Notes: generated by a model from the sequence alone, not told the origin. Shown: positions 24,694-34,110, numbered from the stretch's first letter. The stretch: DNA of 64,000 bases from Marinitoga piezophila KA3 (GCF_000255135.1 NC_016751.1:1550001-1614000); one strand, 5' to 3'. Program-made: numbers and translations.

Positions 24694-26139
24694 TTATAAA
24701 AACCTCTCAATAATATCATCAATCAAAACTCTTTCATCATCTTCAAAAGAGTAATAGCCTAAAGCAACGCGTTTTTGACCAAGACCATATTTAATAGCAA
24801 AATCCCTAACCTTACCTTTTGGATAAGGAGTAATGGGCCATTTAATATCGTATCGAACACAATTTCTTAAAAACACATCAAAGATTTTCATTTCCTCATC
24901 ACTGAGCTTAAAATAGTTAAACACAAATTCCTTAAAGTTCTTTGTTTTCTTAAAAAGCTCAGTGATGAGTTTTTTTCTTGCTAAATAAAATGGTGAAATA
25001 TTATATTCCGAATCTTCAACATCTTCAGAATTCAATAATCTTCTTTCAGCTTTCTTCAAATCAAAATCACTCATCATAACATTAAAAAAATACATCTTCT
25101 CATAATCCCTTGAAAAATATTTAATGGTTTTTTCCTTATTACCTTCAAAAATCAATTTCAAAATATGACTCTTTGTAAAAAATGGTTTTTCTATTAATGT
25201 TGTATATGTTGAGAAGAATAATATTGGGATTTTATGATTTTTAACTTTTTCTATGATGGAAAGGTTATCTCTGAAATTATGAGAGATAATTTTTTTAAAA
25301 CTTCTATTTCTGAAAAAGCTTTTATTATTATAAACCTCTTCAAAATCAGATTTAATCTCAAAAGATACATTATTCTTATAATTCATAACAACGGATGAAA
25401 TATCAAATAAATTTAAAGACTTATTTATTTTATATACCTCAAAAATCGTATCAAACCAGTTATAGGTATAATTTAAATCATCGAAATAATAGCCAATATA
25501 ATATTCAAGTAAATTTGCAGGAATTAAAGCCTTCTTTTTATCTTCATTTCTCATCCACCATGCAGCACCATTTAAACCATTACACATCATAGTTGGATGT
25601 GGAAAGTCTTTTGCAAGAAAATAACCTTCTATGAATAATTCATATGCTTTATTATATTCTTTATTCTTAATATGTTCTCTTGCTTGAGAATATTTTAAGA
25701 TAGCTTTATCTACATTATTTTCTTCATAATTATCAGAATACGCTTTAAAATCCTTATCGAGGATATTATATTTTGTATTCAATAATTTTAAACCAGGAAT
25801 CATTAAATTCCTGGCATATTCAGAAATATTCTTAAAGTTATTTCTTAGATATTCACATTCTTTTTTAGCCATATCAAATTGATTATTTTTTACATAAAGA
25901 GATATGAGTTCAAATCTTGCAAGTTCTCTTAATATTGTTGTTGTTGTTGTTGTTGTTGCAATAATTTTATTTGCATAAAATATTGCCATATTTTTGTTTT
26001 TCTTCCAAATATTTTTTAATAATAATAAATAATATTCTACAGATTTTTCTTTAGTTTTAGAAAGAATGTAATTAGAAATTGGATTTGAATAATATCCGTA
26101 TCTAACAATGGAAACAATATCCTTTATATGAGAAGTCAT
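24694..26139 (-). CDS. Unrecognised helical (TPR-like) cytoplasmic protein
   Basis: I do not recognise the family. The protein is about 481 residues, without signal peptide or membrane segments, and rich in paired amphipathic helices. The stretch around residues 150-190 (KYSQAREHIKNKEYNKAYELF) looks like a tetratricopeptide repeat. The C-terminal ~50 residues include a Gly-rich YGLGQKRVALGYYSF segment. There is no clear N-terminal helix-turn-helix. A run of seven Thr is encoded by a CAA-type trinucleotide repeat (25935-25958). I start at the second ATG (26139) because AAAGG lies at a proper distance from it; the first ATG at 26148 abuts the ribosome site. It is divergent from a secreted-peptide gene, which suggests a peptide sensor as one possibility. 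Confidence 0.75.
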   Translation of the reverse strand: MTSHIKDIVSIVRYGYYSNPISNYILSKTKEKSVEYYLLLLKNIWKKNKNMAIFYANKIIATTTTTTTILRELARFELISLYVKNNQFDMAKKECEYLRNNFKNISEYARNLMIPGLKLLNTKYNILDKDFKAYSDNYEENNVDKAILKYSQAREHIKNKEYNKAYELFIEGYFLAKDFPHPTMMCNGLNGAAWWMRNEDKKKALIPANLLEYYIGYYFDDLNYTYNWFDTIFEVYKINKSLNLFDISSVVMNYKNNVSFEIKSDFEEVYNNKSFFRNRSFKKIISHNFRDNLSIIEKVKNHKIPILFFSTYTTLIEKPFFTKSHILKLIFEGNKEKTIKYFSRDYEKMYFFNVMMSDFDLKKAERRLLNSEDVEDSEYNISPFYLARKKLITELFKKTKNFKEFVFNYFKLSDEEMKIFDVFLRNCVRYDIKWPITPYPKGKVRDFAIKYGLGQKRVALGYYSFEDDERVLIDDIIERFL

Positions 26140-26336
26140 GTTAATCATCCTTTTACAAAGAGTTAATTATTATGTTTCAATAAAATTCGAAAACCAAGAA
26201 ACTTTATGGACTTTTTGGAATGAAATTTGAAAAATAAAAATATAAAAATAGTCAAAAATAGGAAATAAGCTTCTTTTATAATTATTACAAAAAAAAAAAC
26301 AAAAATTAAAAAAATGAAAATTAATTAAAATGGAAT

Positions 26337-26439: not shown

Positions 26440-26571
26440 ATGAAAAAAATAATTATATTAATAATTGTAGGAATTATTATGTTTTCAACAATAATATTTG
26501 CAGGGGATAATGATGACGAGTATGCTACTCATTCAGCCAACCCTCAAATTCAAACTGAATTTTCTAAATAA
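26440..26571 (+). CDS. Short secreted peptide (43 residues)
   Basis: This gene is too short for length-based calling but has AGGAGGTGGG five bases before its ATG and a clear promoter. The product starts with Lys-Lys and a hydrophobic stretch ending FSTIIFA, a Sec-type signal. A 22-residue polar tail follows, beginning GDNDDEY and ending QIQTEFSK; it is acidic and has no Cys. It is not recognised. It shares its promoter sequence with the six-Cys peptide operon and faces away from the TPR-like gene. A signalling peptide or small secreted factor is plausible; a substrate of the nearby radical SAM enzymes is less likely because it lacks Cys and has an export signal. Confidence 0.65.
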   Translation: MKKIIILIIVGIIMFSTIIFAGDNDDEYATHSANPQIQTEFSK

Positions 26572-26772: not shown

Positions 26773-26916
26773 ATGTTAAATGAAAGAAAGGATGAAAATA
26801 TAATAAACAAAGAAGAGATTTTAGATTTTGGAATAAGTAATGATGAATTAAATGAACTTTTTTCATTAAGTGTTATTGTAATATGTGAAGGAGGTCAAGA
26901 GGGAGATTTAGGATAA
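26773..26916 (+). CDS. Single-Cys RiPP precursor peptide (47 residues)
   Basis: AAGGAGGTG precedes the ATG. The product has a charged, helical leader (about residues 1-31, ending NDELNELFS). A short hydrophobic core then leads into a single Cys and an acidic Gly-rich end: SVIVICEGGQEGDLG, with Cys38, Glu39, Glu43 and Asp45. This layout, next to a SPASM radical SAM enzyme of the QhpD/SCIFF type, fits a ribosomally made peptide that receives a thioether from Cys38 to a nearby residue. In QhpC- and PapA-type substrates the acceptor is Asp or Glu, which this core offers. No peptide family is recognised. A palindrome directly after the stop may attenuate the downstream enzymes. Confidence 0.75.
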   Translation: MLNERKDENIINKEEILDFGISNDELNELFSLSVIVICEGGQEGDLG

Positions 26917-26924
26917 AATAATGA

Positions 26925-26940
26925 ATACAGGGCCCTGTAT
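26925..26940. repeat. Perfect 16-bp palindrome 3
   Basis: ATACAGGGCCCTGTAT lies between the precursor and the GNAT gene. As RNA it would form a GC-rich hairpin without a T-run, suited to keeping the precursor mRNA in excess. Confidence 0.6.
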
Positions 26941-26976
26941 ATCTATATGTGATTATGTATTATAATGAGGTGAAAA

Positions 26977-27708
26977 ATGATAAAGTTTAAAAATTATTAT
27001 TTAAATTATATAGGTATTAATAGAGCAAAAAGCAAGAAGATTATATTAACAAAAAATAGAAATATTATAATAAATAATGTATACCAATATCCCTTTATTA
27101 TAAGTAACTTAAATAATAATTTATTAATCTCGATTTCGCCACAATATAAAGAATACATAATTTATACAAGTTTTATATTACAAAAAGAAATGGAAGTATT
27201 ATCTTTATATAATATTTTGAAAAATAGATTAAAAAATGAAAATATTGATTTGATGCGAATATATACATTTGAAAGTAATGAATATACCTTTGATACACAA
27301 GAAGTAAAGATATTAAATTTAGAAGAAAAAGAAAAATATTTTACAATATTTAAAAATAAGAAATTCGATAAAATACTTTTAGAAAAATTATGGAATAGAA
27401 ATATAAGAAAAATTTTAGAAAAACGTTTTTTTTACATAGAAAAAAATGGTGAAATTGTGTCATATTCATACATTTCTGATATTAATTTTAATGGAGGAAA
27501 TATTATAGTATATACTAATCCAAAATGGAGAAATATGGGATTTGGTAAAAAAGTGGCAGGAGCCTCTGTAAAATGGTGTATTAATAATAATATTTTACCA
27601 ATATATAGGGTATCAGAAAATAATAGTAACTCTATCCGTATTGCAGAAAAAATAGAACTTTTATTTAAAAAAAGAGAAATAGTTTTAAAAATAAAAGTAA
27701 GGAAATAG
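26977..27708 (+). CDS. GNAT-type acetyltransferase of RiPP set 1
   Basis: The 243-residue protein has a GNAT fold in its C-terminal half. IVYTNPKWRNMGFGKKVAGA resembles the acetyl-CoA-binding Q/R-x-x-G-x-G/A motif (RNMGFG, about residues 187-192), and RVSENNSNSIRIAEKIEL is the family's usual last helix region. The N-terminal half (about 1-120) is not recognised and is unusually rich in Asn, Ile and Lys. GAGGTG precedes the ATG. Placed between precursor and radical SAM gene, it may acetylate the peptide or serve as self-protection; neither is shown by the sequence. Confidence 0.75.
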   Translation: MIKFKNYYLNYIGINRAKSKKIILTKNRNIIINNVYQYPFIISNLNNNLLISISPQYKEYIIYTSFILQKEMEVLSLYNILKNRLKNENIDLMRIYTFESNEYTFDTQEVKILNLEEKEKYFTIFKNKKFDKILLEKLWNRNIRKILEKRFFYIEKNGEIVSYSYISDINFNGGNIIVYTNPKWRNMGFGKKVAGASVKWCINNNILPIYRVSENNSNSIRIAEKIELLFKKREIVLKIKVRK

Positions 27709-27719
27709 GAGGATTTTTT

Positions 27720-28988
27720 ATGAATAGAGTTTGGAATTTTGAGATTGATTCTATTAAATATGTATTTGACGGAAACAATATAATAATAAAAAAAGAAAAT
27801 AATATAAAAAATATAGAAAATGCAGATGAAACGATTTTTATAGATAAAAAAGGTTTAAGAACTTTAGCATTAAATGTAATAAATGATTGTAATTTAAAAT
27901 GTGATTATTGTTTTGCAAATTTTGGATATTATAAAGATGGAAAAACAGTAATGAAATTTGAAATTGCTAAAAAGGCTGTAGATCTGTTATTGAATTCTGC
28001 AATAGAAAACGGTAATAAAGAAATAACAATAGCTTTTTTTGGAGGAGAACCACTTTTAAATTTTGATTTGATAAAAAAAGTAGTTGACTATGCAGAGAAA
28101 ACAAAAAGTGATAATTTAGAGATCAAATATTTAATAACAACAAATGGAACATTGTTTGACCTTGAAAAAATTAAATTTATGAAAAAGTACAAATTCCAAA
28201 TTACATTAAGTATCGATGGAGGAAAAGAGCTTCATAATTCTAATCGAAAATTTATTAATGGTAAAGGAAGTTTTGAAGTAATACAAAATAATTTCGAATT
28301 ACTTTTAAAGTCATTTGTAGTGAATGCAAGAATAACAATTAATAATAAAAATTATAATATATTAAAGAGTATAAAAGAACTCAAAAATTTAGGTTTTAGA
28401 AGATTTACTTTTGCACCTGATTATAATTTGTCACAAGAAAATTTTGAAAAATATTTAGAAAGTTTATCTTCATTATTTGAATATTATTATAATTTAATAT
28501 TAAAAAAGGAATACATTGATATAACGAACATAACTCGAGTATTAATGAATATATTATTTAGAATAAAAAAAATAAACCATTGTAATGCAGGATTAACCTA
28601 TTTTTCGGTAGCTACAAATGGTAATATATATAGATGTCCTAGATTTACAGATGAAAAAGATTTTCTTTTAGGTAATATAAATAATCTTGAAATTAAAGAT
28701 ATAAATTATCATATAAAAAAATTAAGAAAAAATATTATTAATTATCATATGAATAGCCTAACTCATAAATGCAATAAATGCCCATTTTTATTTTTATGTG
28801 GTGGAGCATGTTACCATTATTCATATATAAATAATAAAACGGAATTTGATGTTGTTGAAAGAGAATGCACAGAAAAAACCTTAATATATGAAGAAACTAT
28901 TAAATTAATCACTAAATTGAATGTAGAACAAAGAAAAGATTTTATACTATCTTTGAAAACCATTTGGAAAAATACAAAATTGTTATAA
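27720..28988 (+). CDS. SPASM radical SAM peptide maturase of RiPP set 1 (QhpD/SCIFF-like)
   Basis: The radical SAM cluster Cys are C57, C61 and C64 in NDCNLKCDYCFANFGYY; the CYA/CFA-x-x-G-x-Y extension is typical of thioether-forming maturases. AFFGGEPLLNF is the SAM-binding GGEP motif. The SPASM region has NHCNAGLTYFSVATNGNIYRC (about 285-306), then CNKCPFLFLCGGAC and a final EREC, enough ligands for two auxiliary 4Fe-4S clusters. The length (422) fits. An AGGAGG ribosome site precedes the ATG 12 bases after the GNAT gene. The likely reaction is a thioether from the precursor's only Cys. Assignment to the QhpD/SCIFF/PapB group is from motif recall. Confidence 0.85.
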   Translation: MNRVWNFEIDSIKYVFDGNNIIIKKENNIKNIENADETIFIDKKGLRTLALNVINDCNLKCDYCFANFGYYKDGKTVMKFEIAKKAVDLLLNSAIENGNKEITIAFFGGEPLLNFDLIKKVVDYAEKTKSDNLEIKYLITTNGTLFDLEKIKFMKKYKFQITLSIDGGKELHNSNRKFINGKGSFEVIQNNFELLLKSFVVNARITINNKNYNILKSIKELKNLGFRRFTFAPDYNLSQENFEKYLESLSSLFEYYYNLILKKEYIDITNITRVLMNILFRIKKINHCNAGLTYFSVATNGNIYRCPRFTDEKDFLLGNINNLEIKDINYHIKKLRKNIINYHMNSLTHKCNKCPFLFLCGGACYHYSYINNKTEFDVVERECTEKTLIYEETIKLITKLNVEQRKDFILSLKTIWKNTKLL

Positions 28989-29429: not shown

Positions 29430-29479
29430 AATTTTTACTTTAAAAAACACTTGAAAGTCATGTTAGAAATGGTAAAATT
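29430..29479 (+). promoter_or_regulatory. Promoter of RiPP set 2 (copy B of the duplicated promoter)
   Basis: TTGAAA (29451-29456) and TAAAAT (29473-29478) are 16 bp apart, inside a 50-bp block nearly the same as 26370-26420. A leader of about 155 bases, A/T-rich and without an open frame, separates it from the first enzyme gene. Confidence 0.75.
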
Positions 29480-29641
29480 CAAAATAAGAGATGTAATTTA
29501 AATTGTCTAAATAAATTTCATTAATTAAATACTTTATATTTTTTTAAATATATAAATTATTATAACAAAAAATATAAGAACAGAAATAATTGAAAACTAA
29601 TGAAAATAAGTTCTTATAAAGATAACATGGCAGGTGAAAAA

Positions 29642-30937
29642 ATGTATAAGGAATCATACTACAATTATTTTTTAGAAATAGATGAAGTTCCAGTATTGGT
29701 TAATTTAAGAACAGGAGCGATAGCAGAAGTAAAGCGTGAAAATGTTCAAAAAATAAAAGAAATATTAAAAGGGAATATAGTTGATGAAGAATTATTTGAA
29801 CAATTAAAATATGGTGGTTATATAGTAGAAGAAGGATATAATGAATATGAAGAAATAAAGATGAGAAATTATAAAGCGCGTTTTGATAATTCAAAAGCAA
29901 TGTTTACAATAATACCAACATTTCAGTGTAATTTTGATTGTATATACTGTTATGAAACAAAAAGAAATAAAATAATGACAATAGAAAAAGCGGAAGAAAT
30001 AGCAGATTATATTATAAATATAAGCAAAAACAAAAAAACGATTTCAATAGGGTGGTTTGGTGGAGAACCATTAATGAATTTTAAAGTTATTGAACATATA
30101 AATATGAAAATAATAGGAGAAAGTGAAGCAGAATTATTTTCATCAATGTCCTCAAATGGATATTTATTAAATTATATAGATGTATCAAAATTTGATGAGT
30201 TAAAAATAAAAAATGTGCAAATAACTCTTGATGGAATAGAAGAAACACATAATAAATATCGACCATTAATAGGTGGCGGAAAAACATTTGATAAAATAAT
30301 AAAAGGAATAGAAAAATTATTTGAAAATACAGAAAAAACAAATGTATCAATAAGGGTAAATGTTGGTCCGGAAAATTATGATAAAATAGAAGAATTGTTT
30401 GAGTATCTTGAAAAATTTCCAAAAGAAAGAATGAAAATATATTTTAGATGGATATTTCAAGCATCTGAAAAAAATAAAGATTTTCATGTACATGTAAGAG
30501 ATTTTAGAAAAGAAAATTCATTTACTAAACTCTCAAAATTATATGAAATGGCAATAAACAGAGGTTATAAAGTAATGTTGCCAATATTGAATGGAGATAT
30601 GTATTGTGAATTTGATAATGTATATAATATGGTAATAGGACCGGAAGGGGAAATATATCCATGTACAGTTGCAGTAGAAGAAGGAATGGAAATGGGGAAA
30701 ATAGAAAACGGAAAAATAAAACTGGAAACAAAAAAACATTTAAAATGGCATAGTCATAATGGATATGAAGATAAAAATTGTAAAGAGTGCAAAATATTAC
30801 CATTATGTCATGGTGGGTGTAGAAATGCAGCATTAAATGGAAATAGAGGATGTCCTGAAGAAAAGCGAGAAACAGAAAGCTTTATAAAATTATGGTATAA
30901 GGTAAAAAAGTTTGAAAAAAAGATGGTGGTTAGATGA
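29642..30937 (+). CDS. SPASM radical SAM peptide maturase 1 of RiPP set 2
   Basis: The first ~80 residues are a small domain (EVPVLVNLRTGAIAEVKREN) followed by a KYGGYIVEEG turn, resembling the peptide-binding front of other SPASM maturases. The radical SAM motif is CNFDCIYCYE (Cys 96, 100, 103) and GWFGGEPLMNF is the GGEP motif. The SPASM end has MYCEFDNVYN, EIYPC, then CKECKILPLCHGGC and GC. I start at 29642: AGGTGA lies six bases upstream, and this makes the cluster Cys fall at residue 96 as in the next enzyme. The frame is open from ATG 29600, which has no ribosome site. The stop overlaps the next start by ATGA. Confidence 0.85.
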   Translation: MYKESYYNYFLEIDEVPVLVNLRTGAIAEVKRENVQKIKEILKGNIVDEELFEQLKYGGYIVEEGYNEYEEIKMRNYKARFDNSKAMFTIIPTFQCNFDCIYCYETKRNKIMTIEKAEEIADYIINISKNKKTISIGWFGGEPLMNFKVIEHINMKIIGESEAELFSSMSSNGYLLNYIDVSKFDELKIKNVQITLDGIEETHNKYRPLIGGGKTFDKIIKGIEKLFENTEKTNVSIRVNVGPENYDKIEELFEYLEKFPKERMKIYFRWIFQASEKNKDFHVHVRDFRKENSFTKLSKLYEMAINRGYKVMLPILNGDMYCEFDNVYNMVIGPEGEIYPCTVAVEEGMEMGKIENGKIKLETKKHLKWHSHNGYEDKNCKECKILPLCHGGCRNAALNGNRGCPEEKRETESFIKLWYKVKKFEKKMVVR

Positions 30938-32274
30938 AAGCTTCCAGATACAATACCATTATAGAAAAAGAAGACGGAAGTCTTCTTCTTTTTAATGGAA
31001 TAACAAATGCAATATTAAAAGTTGAAAAAAAGAATGCCGAAAGGATAAAAAAAATATTAAACGGAAAACTGGAAAATGAAGAAGAGATAAGTATATTAAA
31101 AAAAGGTGGATTCATAATAGAAAATGACAGAGACGAATTAAGCGATATAATAGCAAAATATAAAAAATTTCAATTTTCAAATGAATATTTTCATCTAACA
31201 ATAACCATGACCACAAACTGTAATTTCAATTGTAAATACTGTTATCAAAGTCAGGCAAAAGAAATAAGTCAAAAACCATTTCAAATAAATAATATAAAAA
31301 AACAAACAATAGATTCAATAATAATGCTGGTAAAAGAAAAAATAAAAGAAAAAAAGCCAAAAATATTCAGCGTAACCTTCTGGGGTGGGGAACCATTACT
31401 TGAAAAAAATAAGATATTAAAAATAAGCAAGAATATAAAAAATATCTGTGAAAAAGAAAATATAGAATACGATGCATTTATAATAACAAACGGTTATTTA
31501 CTTAATGAAACGACAATAAAAGAACTAAAAAAAGCTGGAGTAGGGAAATTAATAATAACTCTTGATGGAACAGAAGAAGAGCATAATAAATTAAGAATAT
31601 TAAAAAATGGAAATGGGACATTTGAAAAAATATATGAAAATATCAAAAAAGCATCAAAAGAAATATTTGTAAAAATAAGAATAAATGTATTTCCACATAA
31701 TGTAAATAGCATAAAAAGATTGATAGATAAAATATCAGAAGATAATTTAAAAGTTGAAATAGATTTAAGACAGGGAGAAATGGCAGATAACAATAAATTA
31801 AAATCATTTACATTAAAAGAATTTGCGAAAGTGGAAAGTGAATTATATAATTATATAATAGAAAAAATAGAATATTATAACTTCAATCCATTTGTAAGAA
31901 TAAATCAGGCAAGATGCGATGCAACCAGTGTAAATTCTCTTGTAATTGATGCAGATGGGAAATTATACAAATGCTGGGGAGAAATAGGCGGAATATCAAA
32001 AGAAATAGGTGAATTAAAGGAAAACGGTAAAGTAGAATTAAATCACAGAAAAAATATATGGTTAGCCTTAGAACCATTTGATGAAGAGTGTAAAAATTGT
32101 AAAGTATTGCCATATTGTATGGGGGGATGCATACTGGGAAAAGTGCTGGCAGAAAAATATGGCGTAATAGAATATGGAAGAGAAAGATGCCTTCCAATAA
32201 AATATAATCTGGAAGAAATGATAGTATTAACAGAAAAAACATATAGGAGGCGAAAAAATGGAATTCGTAAATGA
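30934..32274 (+). CDS. SPASM radical SAM peptide maturase 2 of RiPP set 2
   Basis: A colinear paralogue of the preceding enzyme. The front domain has SLLLFNGITNAILKVEKKN and a KKGGFIIEND turn, CNFNCKYCYQ again puts the cluster Cys at 96, 100 and 103, and FWGGEPLLEK is the SAM-binding motif. The SPASM end has QARCDATSVN, KLYKCWGE, then CKNCKVLPYCMGGC and RERC. By eye the two share roughly a quarter to a third of residues, so they are old duplicates with probably different jobs or a joint heteromer. It is coupled to its neighbours on both sides: ATGA overlap upstream, and 17 bases shared with the peptide gene downstream. Confidence 0.85.
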   Translation: MKASRYNTIIEKEDGSLLLFNGITNAILKVEKKNAERIKKILNGKLENEEEISILKKGGFIIENDRDELSDIIAKYKKFQFSNEYFHLTITMTTNCNFNCKYCYQSQAKEISQKPFQINNIKKQTIDSIIMLVKEKIKEKKPKIFSVTFWGGEPLLEKNKILKISKNIKNICEKENIEYDAFIITNGYLLNETTIKELKKAGVGKLIITLDGTEEEHNKLRILKNGNGTFEKIYENIKKASKEIFVKIRINVFPHNVNSIKRLIDKISEDNLKVEIDLRQGEMADNNKLKSFTLKEFAKVESELYNYIIEKIEYYNFNPFVRINQARCDATSVNSLVIDADGKLYKCWGEIGGISKEIGELKENGKVELNHRKNIWLALEPFDEECKNCKVLPYCMGGCILGKVLAEKYGVIEYGRERCLPIKYNLEEMIVLTEKTYRRRKNGIRK

Positions 32275-32419
32275 ACCAAGAGAAGAAAATTTATTCTCAT
32301 TCTGTGACTTTGGAAAAGACAAAGTTGAAAATTGTGACGAATGCTTTAATCAAGCATGTGAGCAAAATGCGAGTTGCAAAGGAGAAGACAAAGGATTCTG
32401 GGATTGGTGTGATTCCTGA
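32258..32419 (+). CDS. Six-Cys RiPP precursor peptide (53 residues)
   Basis: A strong AGGAGG lies seven bases before the ATG, inside the end of the maturase 2 gene. The stop (32417-32419) is two bases before the exporter permease ATG, so this tiny frame fills exactly the gap between two genes. The peptide has Cys at 16, 26, 29, 34, 40 and 51. Three of them are followed by Asp and one by Glu (CD, CD, CE, CD), and it ends FWDWCDS. The leader is short and acidic (about residues 1-13). The Cys/acid pattern and two SPASM enzymes fit a polycyclic thioether peptide of the ranthipeptide or sactipeptide kind. No known family is recognised. A disulfide-rich peptide is an alternative. Confidence 0.82.
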   Translation: MEFVNEPREENLFSFCDFGKDKVENCDECFNQACEQNASCKGEDKGFWDWCDS

Positions 32420-32421
32420 AC

Positions 32422-33234
32422 ATGAAACAAATAAAAAAATTCCTGTATTTTCTGGTAAGGGATATATTAATATGGAAAAGCTACAAAACACAGGCAGTAT
32501 TGGGGATACTGAGTGGATTCTTAGGATTATTGCAATTTGGATTCATGGGAAGGTTTATAGCCCAGGGGAATTACTTTCCAATGATAGAGCAGTATGGAGG
32601 AAACATACTGGCATATTTCATATCAGGAAGCGTATTCATGAGTTACACTACTCTCTCCTTAACAACATTCAAAAGTGTAATAAGACAGGAGCAGGTAATG
32701 GGAACAATAGAATACCTGCTCCTGTCGGAAACACCATTATGGGAAGTATTTATATACACAATCTTCTCAAGATTGGTATTTACAATAATAAACACAGGAA
32801 TAGTATTTATATTCTTAATATACACATTTGATGTAGAAATAAAAATGAATATAATAGCATCAATAATATTATTGATAATAACAATGATAAGTTTAAGTGG
32901 AATAGGATTATTAAGTGCAGGGTTCATAATGCTAACCAAAAAAGGAGATCCAGTAAGTTGGGTATATTCATTCTTAACAGGAATGTTTTCAGGGATATAC
33001 TATCCGGTGGAAATATTGCCAAAATGGATAAGGGGAGTATCGTATATACTGCCAACAACATATGCAATGGATGGATTGAGAAAAACATTAATAAAAGGAT
33101 ACAGTCTATACGAAATAAAAGAGGATATAATAATCCTGGTAATAATGACAGCAATAATATTACCAATAGGGATATACTGGTTCAGAGAATCATTTAACAA
33201 AGCCAGGAAATATGGCACAATATCGCAGTATTAG
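32422..33234 (+). CDS. ABC-2 type exporter permease of RiPP set 2
   Basis: A 270-residue membrane protein with about six helices and the ABC-2 permease layout. GTIEYLLLSETPLWEVF lies near residue 95, and a Gly/Pro-rich FSGIYYPVEILPKWIRGVSY stretch before the last pair of helices is the usual ABC-2 signature region. It starts two bases after the six-Cys peptide gene and ends 11 bases before its ATPase gene. With that ATPase it would carry the matured peptide out, or protect the producer. No protease domain is attached, so leader removal must happen elsewhere or not at all. Confidence 0.85.
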   Translation: MKQIKKFLYFLVRDILIWKSYKTQAVLGILSGFLGLLQFGFMGRFIAQGNYFPMIEQYGGNILAYFISGSVFMSYTTLSLTTFKSVIRQEQVMGTIEYLLLSETPLWEVFIYTIFSRLVFTIINTGIVFIFLIYTFDVEIKMNIIASIILLIITMISLSGIGLLSAGFIMLTKKGDPVSWVYSFLTGMFSGIYYPVEILPKWIRGVSYILPTTYAMDGLRKTLIKGYSLYEIKEDIIILVIMTAIILPIGIYWFRESFNKARKYGTISQY

Positions 33235-33245
33235 GAAGTGAAACA

Positions 33246-33968
33246 ATGGAAAAAATAATAGAAATCAAAAACCTGACAAAAATATACAAAAATGGGATAA
33301 AAGCGCTGGAAAATATAAATCTAACAATAAACAAAGGAGAAAAAATAACAATATTTGGACCAAATGGAGCAGGAAAAACAACATTAATAAAAACAATAGG
33401 AATGTTCATAATACCGGATAAAGGAAAAATAACAATAAAAGGATATGACATAAAAAAAGAATCAAAACAAATAAAAAAATTAATATCAATAGCGACATCA
33501 AATGAAAGGTCATTCTATTACAGATTAAGCTTAGAAGAAAATCTAAACTTCTTTGGAATGTTAAACAACCTAACAGGAAAAGAATTAAAAAAGAAAGTGG
33601 AAAAAGGATTAAAAGAAATGGGGCTATATGAAACCAGAAAAATAAAGTATATGGAAGCATCAACGGGGATGAAGAGGAGATTAAATCTAGCAAGGGCATT
33701 AATAAAAGAAGCGGAAATATATTTACTTGATGAACCGACAAATGGAGTGGATATAGAAACGAAAATAAAGATATATGAAATAATGGAAGAGCTAAGTCAA
33801 AAAGGAAAAACAATAATCTTAGCCAGTCATGATGTAAGTGAAATAGAAAAAACAGACAGGATAGTGGTATTAAAAAAAGGGAAAATAACAGCAGACAAAA
33901 AAACAGGAGAAATCCTGGAAAAAACAACGAGAAAAAATGAAGAAAAATTGCTGGAATTAATCAAATGA
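33246..33968 (+). CDS. ABC-2 type exporter ATPase of RiPP set 2
   Basis: The 240-residue ATPase pairs with the preceding permease. Walker A is FGPNGAGKTTL, the signature is ASTGMKRRLNLARAL (ST-G in place of LSGGQ, common in ABC-2 exporters), Walker B is IYLLDEPTNGVD and the switch His is in ILASHDVSE. GGAAG precedes the ATG. It is the last gene of the operon; its stop codon lies within the stem of the terminator. The coding strand is extremely A-rich, with ATA the main Ile codon, as in the rest of RiPP set 2. Confidence 0.9.
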   Translation: MEKIIEIKNLTKIYKNGIKALENINLTINKGEKITIFGPNGAGKTTLIKTIGMFIIPDKGKITIKGYDIKKESKQIKKLISIATSNERSFYYRLSLEENLNFFGMLNNLTGKELKKKVEKGLKEMGLYETRKIKYMEASTGMKRRLNLARALIKEAEIYLLDEPTNGVDIETKIKIYEIMEELSQKGKTIILASHDVSEIEKTDRIVVLKKGKITADKKTGEILEKTTRKNEEKLLELIK

Positions 33969-33990
33969 GGCGAAAGCCTCATTTTGTTTT
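33963..33990 (+). terminator. Terminator of RiPP set 2
   Basis: AAATGAGGC (33963-33971) pairs with GCCTCATTT (33976-33984) across a GAAA tetraloop, followed by a T-rich tract. The stop codon of the ATPase is in the stem. Confidence 0.9.
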
Positions 33991-33994
33991 GATA

Positions 33995-34110
33995 TGGTAT
34001 AATTGAAGAGTAGAATGTGTGGTTTATAAAAACGAACTTTGAAAATCCATCGAAAGTGAGAAACTAATTAAAAATTTGCAGAATTGAAATTCTATAGTTT
34101 TTTTAATTAA
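33995..34110 (+). ncRNA. Candidate small RNA
   Basis: TGGTATAAT (33995-34003) is an extended -10 element. About 95 bases later AGAATTGAAATTCT and an outer AACTA/TAGTT pairing lead into TTTTTTT (near 34098-34104), which looks like a weak terminator. No open frame with a ribosome site lies between. The pieces fit a short transcript, but the hairpin is weak and A/T-only. Confidence 0.25.

Follow-up and report, generated by a model that had tools for sequence, protein, structure and literature searches.

Does a frame of 53 codons, tucked between two radical SAM genes and an ABC exporter of Marinitoga piezophila KA3, a deep-sea, heat-loving bacterium, encode the substrate of a RiPP pathway, and if so, which bonds might the two enzymes write into it? 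The locus lies in the window, i.e., the whole stretch of 64,000 nucleotides that was analysed (GCF_000255135.1, NC_016751.1:1550001-1614000), and the surrounding genome comprises 2.24 Mb in two contigs. A sequence-only reading had placed a compact RiPP operon at 29430-33990, proposed to make and export a polycyclic thioether peptide. The gene content of this segment proved right, but its first gene begins about 200 bp downstream of position 29430.

Layout of the Operon

The operon is encoded on the plus strand and opens with rSAM A (29600..30937; PF04055, E 2.3e-23), for which alignment with relatives favours a start at 29642 over 29600. The colinear rSAM B (30934..32274; PF04055, E 4.3e-24) follows with an ATGA overlap. 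The 53-codon frame (32258..32419) overlaps rSAM B by 17 bases, is preceded by an AGGAGG ribosome-binding site (32245..32250) 7 bases 5' of its ATG and ends two bases before a DrrB-like ABC-2 permease gene (32422..33234; PF01061, E 3.9e-16). A DrrA-like ABC ATPase comes next (33246..33968; PF00005, E 5.1e-32; drrA model 187 bits, under the cut-off of 312), and the operon closes with an intrinsic-terminator-like hairpin (33963..33984, then TGTTTTGATA). The overlaps, the spacings and the hairpin are all present as first described, and so is the composition of the small product, which carries Cys at positions 16, 26, 29, 34, 40 and 51, with Asp after C16, C26 and C51, and Glu after C34. Its N-terminus bears the leader motif MEFVNEP.

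Purifying selection marks the 53-residue frame as a genuine gene. It is full length and free of indels in five other Marinitoga, and dN/dS between this genome and these relatives, with the rSAM B overlap excluded, amounts to 0.04-0.07 (about 0.05). Since the ORF is kept in six other Marinitoga genomes (in one of them, the last 14 residues alone are seen at a contig edge), it does not owe its existence to chance. Two observations had been named in advance as counter-evidence, namely relatives that keep the enzymes and lose the small frame, and Cys positions that vary. The first is contradicted by the relatives, which retain the frame. The second does not apply within Marinitoga, where all six Cys as well as N31 and N37 are invariant in the five relatives, yet beyond this genus not every Cys is universal.

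A Precursor Family in Thermotogota

To survey the distribution of the operon, rSAM B served as query against 103 Thermotogota genomes, and the neighbourhoods of the hits were read. Reading past rSAM B into the genes downstream was possible for the A+B pair of 17 Thermotogota genomes and of one Caldisericales MAG, a count that includes G096, where the first enzyme lies off the contig, and G091, which was judged from coordinates. A Cys-rich peptide starting with ME[FY][ILV]N.P is encoded directly 3' of rSAM B in 18/18 of these operons, in agreement with the gene order expected from the sequence-only reading. ABC exporter genes then follow in the fully readable loci, in varying order and, in G085 and G036, at varying distance. 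Outside Thermotogota, the pair was found in the Caldisericales MAG alone; 23 of 75 other loci from the genome scan were inspected, and these harbour enzymes of at most 31% identity and no MEFxNxP peptides.

A precursor is thus encoded beside the modifying enzymes and conserved along with them, as defines a RiPP operon, and the assignment of the locus to this type, combining a pair of SPASM maturases with a conserved Cys-rich precursor and an ABC-2 exporter, is well supported. The notion of a single peptide gives way to that of a family, in which three to five additional related peptides are often encoded upstream of rSAM A. Such upstream peptides occur in four other Marinitoga, in G090, in G001 and in the Caldisericales MAG. 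The downstream type alone, with both enzymes kept, is found in this genome and in seven others (G039, G014, G036, G047, G048, G051 and G092); apart from the 53-mer itself, the window holds no remnants of upstream precursors.

Among the 39 distinct peptides gathered, 19 of 20 non-redundant ones contain C-x(1,2)-C-x-[ND]-x(2,3)-C, and the conserved nucleus of the family beyond Marinitoga reads NC-x(1,2)-C-x-[ND]-x(2,3)-C. As had been supposed, the 53-mer falls outside known precursor families, with no match in NCBIfam or Pfam, and ten family peptides compared with the NCBIfam precursor models gave no match either. No account of A+B loci was found in the literature, which was covered by way of open-licence papers, so that an earlier description in subscription journals is possible. 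A survey from 2014 lists Tmel_0409 as the sole sactipeptide locus of Thermotogae (BMC Genomics, PMC4289311), a locus that we do not tie to the A+B family. The RiPP family with its paired maturase is hence genuine and apparently undescribed. These operons add a precursor family that is missed by current annotation models, and their thermophile origin implies that A- and B-type enzymes may be robust.

One further Thermotogota locus (L206:8590-10044) encodes a 32-residue peptide with two Cys, one radical SAM enzyme and ABC genes. It resembles the Thermotoga maritima TM1316 locus, which we take to consist of a small peptide, a radical SAM gene and ABC genes. Membership in the A+B family was rejected on account of the single enzyme, the short two-Cys peptide and the missing MEFxNxP leader.

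In M. lauensis, a close relative (L056), rSAM A, rSAM B and a nearby gene of 484 codons are broken by stops or frameshifts, and the peptides are intact; the interruptions may reflect sequencing error or decay.

Two Old and Distinct SPASM Enzymes

The paralogues rSAM A and rSAM B share about 36% identity. In the tree, either enzyme has a clade to itself (support 100/99), and the main groupings of one subtree recur in the other; A and B therefore represent an old pair that was inherited or transferred together. Both enzymes show the pattern of SPASM radical SAM maturases, i.e., a CxxxCxxC motif (CNFDCIYC in A, CNFNCKYC in B) plus seven SPASM Cys, all of which are invariant in seven genomes. The SPASM model TIGR04085 recognizes A above its cut-off (57 bits versus 27). 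The Pfam SPASM model scores A above the cut-off in the genome search and just below it in a separate search, and is not listed for B.

In the AlphaFold models of A (pLDDT 89) and B (pLDDT 84), residues 1-80 form three strands and three helices arranged as in an RRE, and both proteins are accordingly predicted to begin with a PqqD-like winged helix. This RRE-like domain of A and B would likely bind the short leader of the precursor, consisting of MEFVNEP plus a few residues.

The best PDB match of both models, over the full length, is CteB, and the sequence profiles agree. TigE and anSME also rank high, and EpeE is among the matches. The SCIFF system CteA-CteB (PDB 5WGG/5WHY) shares with the present one an RRE combined with SPASM and a precursor with six Cys. 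However, identity of CteB to A and B is 16-20%, the SCIFF model TIGR03974 assigns 110 (A) and 78 (B) bits against a cut-off of 425, and the 53-mer lacks a SCIFF-type Thr acceptor. A and B fall well short of the curated cut-offs of all NCBIfam maturase models listed, among which the nearest are Clo7bot (TIGR04334; A 204, B 256 bits; cut-off 600), TIGR04463 and CefB (NF038107; A 197, B 210 bits; cut-off 600). These three top-scoring models align over nearly the full length at 197-256 bits, yet their cut-offs of 525-600 are not reached, and NCBIfam holds no precursor model that matches.

Since operons with the downstream peptide type alone keep both enzymes, A and B probably both act on this peptide, and joint action on a single precursor, either in partnership or one after the other, appears likely. 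A precedent is thuricin CD, where two adjacent SPASM-type enzymes, TrnC and TrnD, are obliged to work together: they form one complex, in which the radical chemistry of only one enzyme is essential (PMC12093266). Unlike thuricin CD, which features two precursors and sactipeptide links to alpha carbons, one-precursor operons here retain both enzymes. In the literature searched, a detailed description was found for thuricin CD only, and the A+B operons offer a second natural case in which to ask for what reason a RiPP keeps two paralogous radical SAM enzymes.

The two enzymes might instead divide the labour, such that one forms Cys thioethers in the NC-x-x-C-x-N-x-x-C nucleus and the other acts on the aromatic tail (FWDWC, WWxWLFPW) at the C-terminus of peptides of the downstream class. 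Trp occurs in 9/9 downstream peptides (23 Trp in all, in the C-terminal tail) versus 2/13 upstream peptides; CC is present in 9/13 of the latter. This distribution, the existence of two distinct old enzyme clades and the precedent of SPASM enzymes that crosslink aromatic residues, for which NCBIfam holds cyclophane maturase models, fit such a split. Yet the same two enzymes serve operons whose upstream peptides are devoid of Trp, and none of the cyclophane maturase models comes near its cut-off with A or B, which leaves a division of labour rather unlikely.

Residues around Cysteine and the Candidate Crosslinks

The residues near Cys in the family peptides were compared with shuffles in which Cys was held fixed; the resulting statistics are inflated by the shared ancestry of the peptides. 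The sharpest preference concerns position -3, where Asn or Asp occurs at 66 of 155 Cys versus 32 expected (z 7.5), and Asn alone 45 times versus 16.5 (z 8.2). With the shared motif masked, Asn/Asp at -3 still reaches 31/97 versus 17.8 (z 3.9), and Ser/Thr is depleted there (z -3.0). As a control, six Cys-rich peptides of the MKWIE type from another locus of this genome show no enrichment of Asn/Asp at -3.

The spacing equals that of the Asn-Cys beta-thioether in NxxcA, where Cys23 is bonded to the Asn20 beta carbon (PMC8326336), and Asn at -3 hints at an acceptor of the NxxC type. The NxxC ranthipeptide of Streptococcus orisratti (NxxcA/NxxcB) resembles the present system in its Asn-x-x-Cys spacing and its SPASM radical SAM maturase. 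It differs in that one enzyme installs one bridge there; here, two enzymes meet precursors with five to eleven Cys and a MEFxNxP leader, without evident homology to NxxcA. The Asn-x-x-Cys motif is enriched throughout the family and present in the 53-mer at N31/C34 and N37/C40, its two [ND]xxC sites, whereas four of its six Cys have no Asn or Asp at -3.

The signal is unevenly distributed between the two peptide classes. In the upstream class, Asn/Asp at -3 amounts to 52 versus 22.8 expected (z 7.9), and one such peptide, of 57 residues (L055:113-283), contains six [ND]xxC sites by itself. In the downstream class, which includes the 53-mer, the -3 signal is confined to Asn (12 versus 4.3, z 4.1) and derives largely from one conserved column, Asn plus Asp is not significant (P 0.054), and Asn at +5 is equally high (11 versus 4.0, z 4.0), owing to the same column. 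With a signal that is strong upstream and largely column-driven downstream, the chemistry is a lead rather than a result. The formation of intramolecular thioethers from Cys sulphur is probable as such. The beta carbon of Asn (or Asp) at i-3, i.e., N31 for C34 and N37 for C40, would be the best candidate acceptor, to which we attach somewhat less than an even chance overall, with the 53-mer less well placed than the upstream siblings. The i-3 Asn/Asp nonetheless supplies a rule, open to test, on the side chains that take part in crosslinks.

Other acceptors had been favoured by the sequence-only reading, which emphasized Asp and Glu next to Cys and drew on enzymes of the QhpD and PapB types. 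Asp directly after Cys is indeed mildly enriched (28 versus 17.9, z 2.8), a weaker signal than Asn at -3. The PapB analogy did not hold up: the SPASM enzyme PapB forms multiple thioethers to Asp in freyrasin, but the Cys-x3-Asp spacing is absent from the 53-mer, and the PapB model NF047865 yields 123 (A) and 119 (B) of 340 bits. Sulphur might also be linked to alpha carbons as in sactipeptides, or to beta/gamma carbons of Asp/Glu in the QhpD manner, giving a nested hairpin in which the -3 Asn/Asp is structural only. The Asp enrichment at +1, the fold relationship to the thioether maturase CteB and the fact that TrnC/TrnD, the sole two-enzyme complex of such a sort found in the literature, is a sactisynthase pair all lend weight to this possibility. 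It is nevertheless unlikely, given the preference for Asn and the depletion of Ser/Thr at -3, and the distance of A from the QhpD-type model (84 of 453 bits) and from SCIFF.

The Cys could, finally, serve disulphides or metal binding, while the enzymes introduce a different change, e.g., epimerisation or C-C bonds. Close CxxC spacing could bind a metal, and the chemistry of radical SAM enzymes is diverse, as EpeE and TigE among the fold matches illustrate; to our knowledge, the TigE pathway does not involve Cys thioethers. We consider this quite improbable, since thioether-type SPASM enzymes are repeatedly accompanied by Cys-rich precursors, and the i-3 Asn preference would be left without an obvious reason.

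Proposed Pathway

The best overall explanation is a RiPP operon in which A and B jointly install thioethers and a DrrAB-like transporter exports the product; as a whole, this account stands at roughly even chances. Export by the DrrAB-like ABC-2 transporter is quite likely. The leader would be removed by a protease encoded outside the operon, or not at all, as the operon contains no protease and searches of NCBIfam and Pfam found no peptidase domain in the two-gene exporter. A bolder version, which we regard as doubtful, holds that A+B form an obligate SPASM pair, old in Thermotogota, that writes repeated [Asn/Asp]-x-x-Cys beta-thioethers (as many as six on a single upstream sibling) on short-leader peptides, and thereby defines a poly-NxxC class of ranthipeptides.

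Neighbouring and Related Loci

The exporter genes (32421-34059) recur at L073:5506-7144, within another RiPP locus of the same genome, with 98.2% DNA identity over 1639 bp. The copy boundary lies one base before the permease ATG, and the copy suggests a recent duplication or gene conversion. The same locus (L073:3170-5494), together with L203 and L204, represents another precursor family with MKWIE/MQWIE leaders, 4-8 Cys and a single SPASM radical SAM enzyme. Upstream of the A+B operon, a second RiPP-like set (26773-28988) comprises a 47-residue peptide with one Cys, a GNAT gene and a PapB-like SPASM enzyme, rSAM C, which scores 249 of 340 bits for PapB.

Further upstream, outside the operon, a gene of 484 codons (24694..26148, minus strand) diverges from a 43-residue propeptide (26440..26571, plus strand). 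The 484-residue protein, receptor- or regulator-like and of an unannotated family, has no significant match in Pfam, NCBIfam or PDB, and homologues occur in 52 of the 103 Thermotogota genomes. The N-terminus of the propeptide is signal-peptide-like, and its C-terminus is conserved as NPQIQxE, ending NPQIQxExSE. It is present in seven copies in the genome (the others at G000:C2 112939, 217194, 910811, 927787, 1682717 and 1724946), and for all seven a 484-residue-family gene, or a fragment of one, is located 290-465 bp away. In four of the seven cases, a radical SAM gene is found no farther than 1.5 kb away, a zone that makes up a fraction of 0.049 of the genome (binomial P 0.0002, a post hoc test). 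In M. lauensis, the pair, with the 484-codon gene broken, is located directly upstream of the precursors of the A/B operon. The 484-residue protein is possibly a regulator and the propeptide a pheromone, and the pair may act as a peptide-signalling switch for RiPP loci. Near residue 65, the 484-residue family harbours a variable poly-Thr run of about 5 to 9 Thr, which could be a slippage-prone tract.
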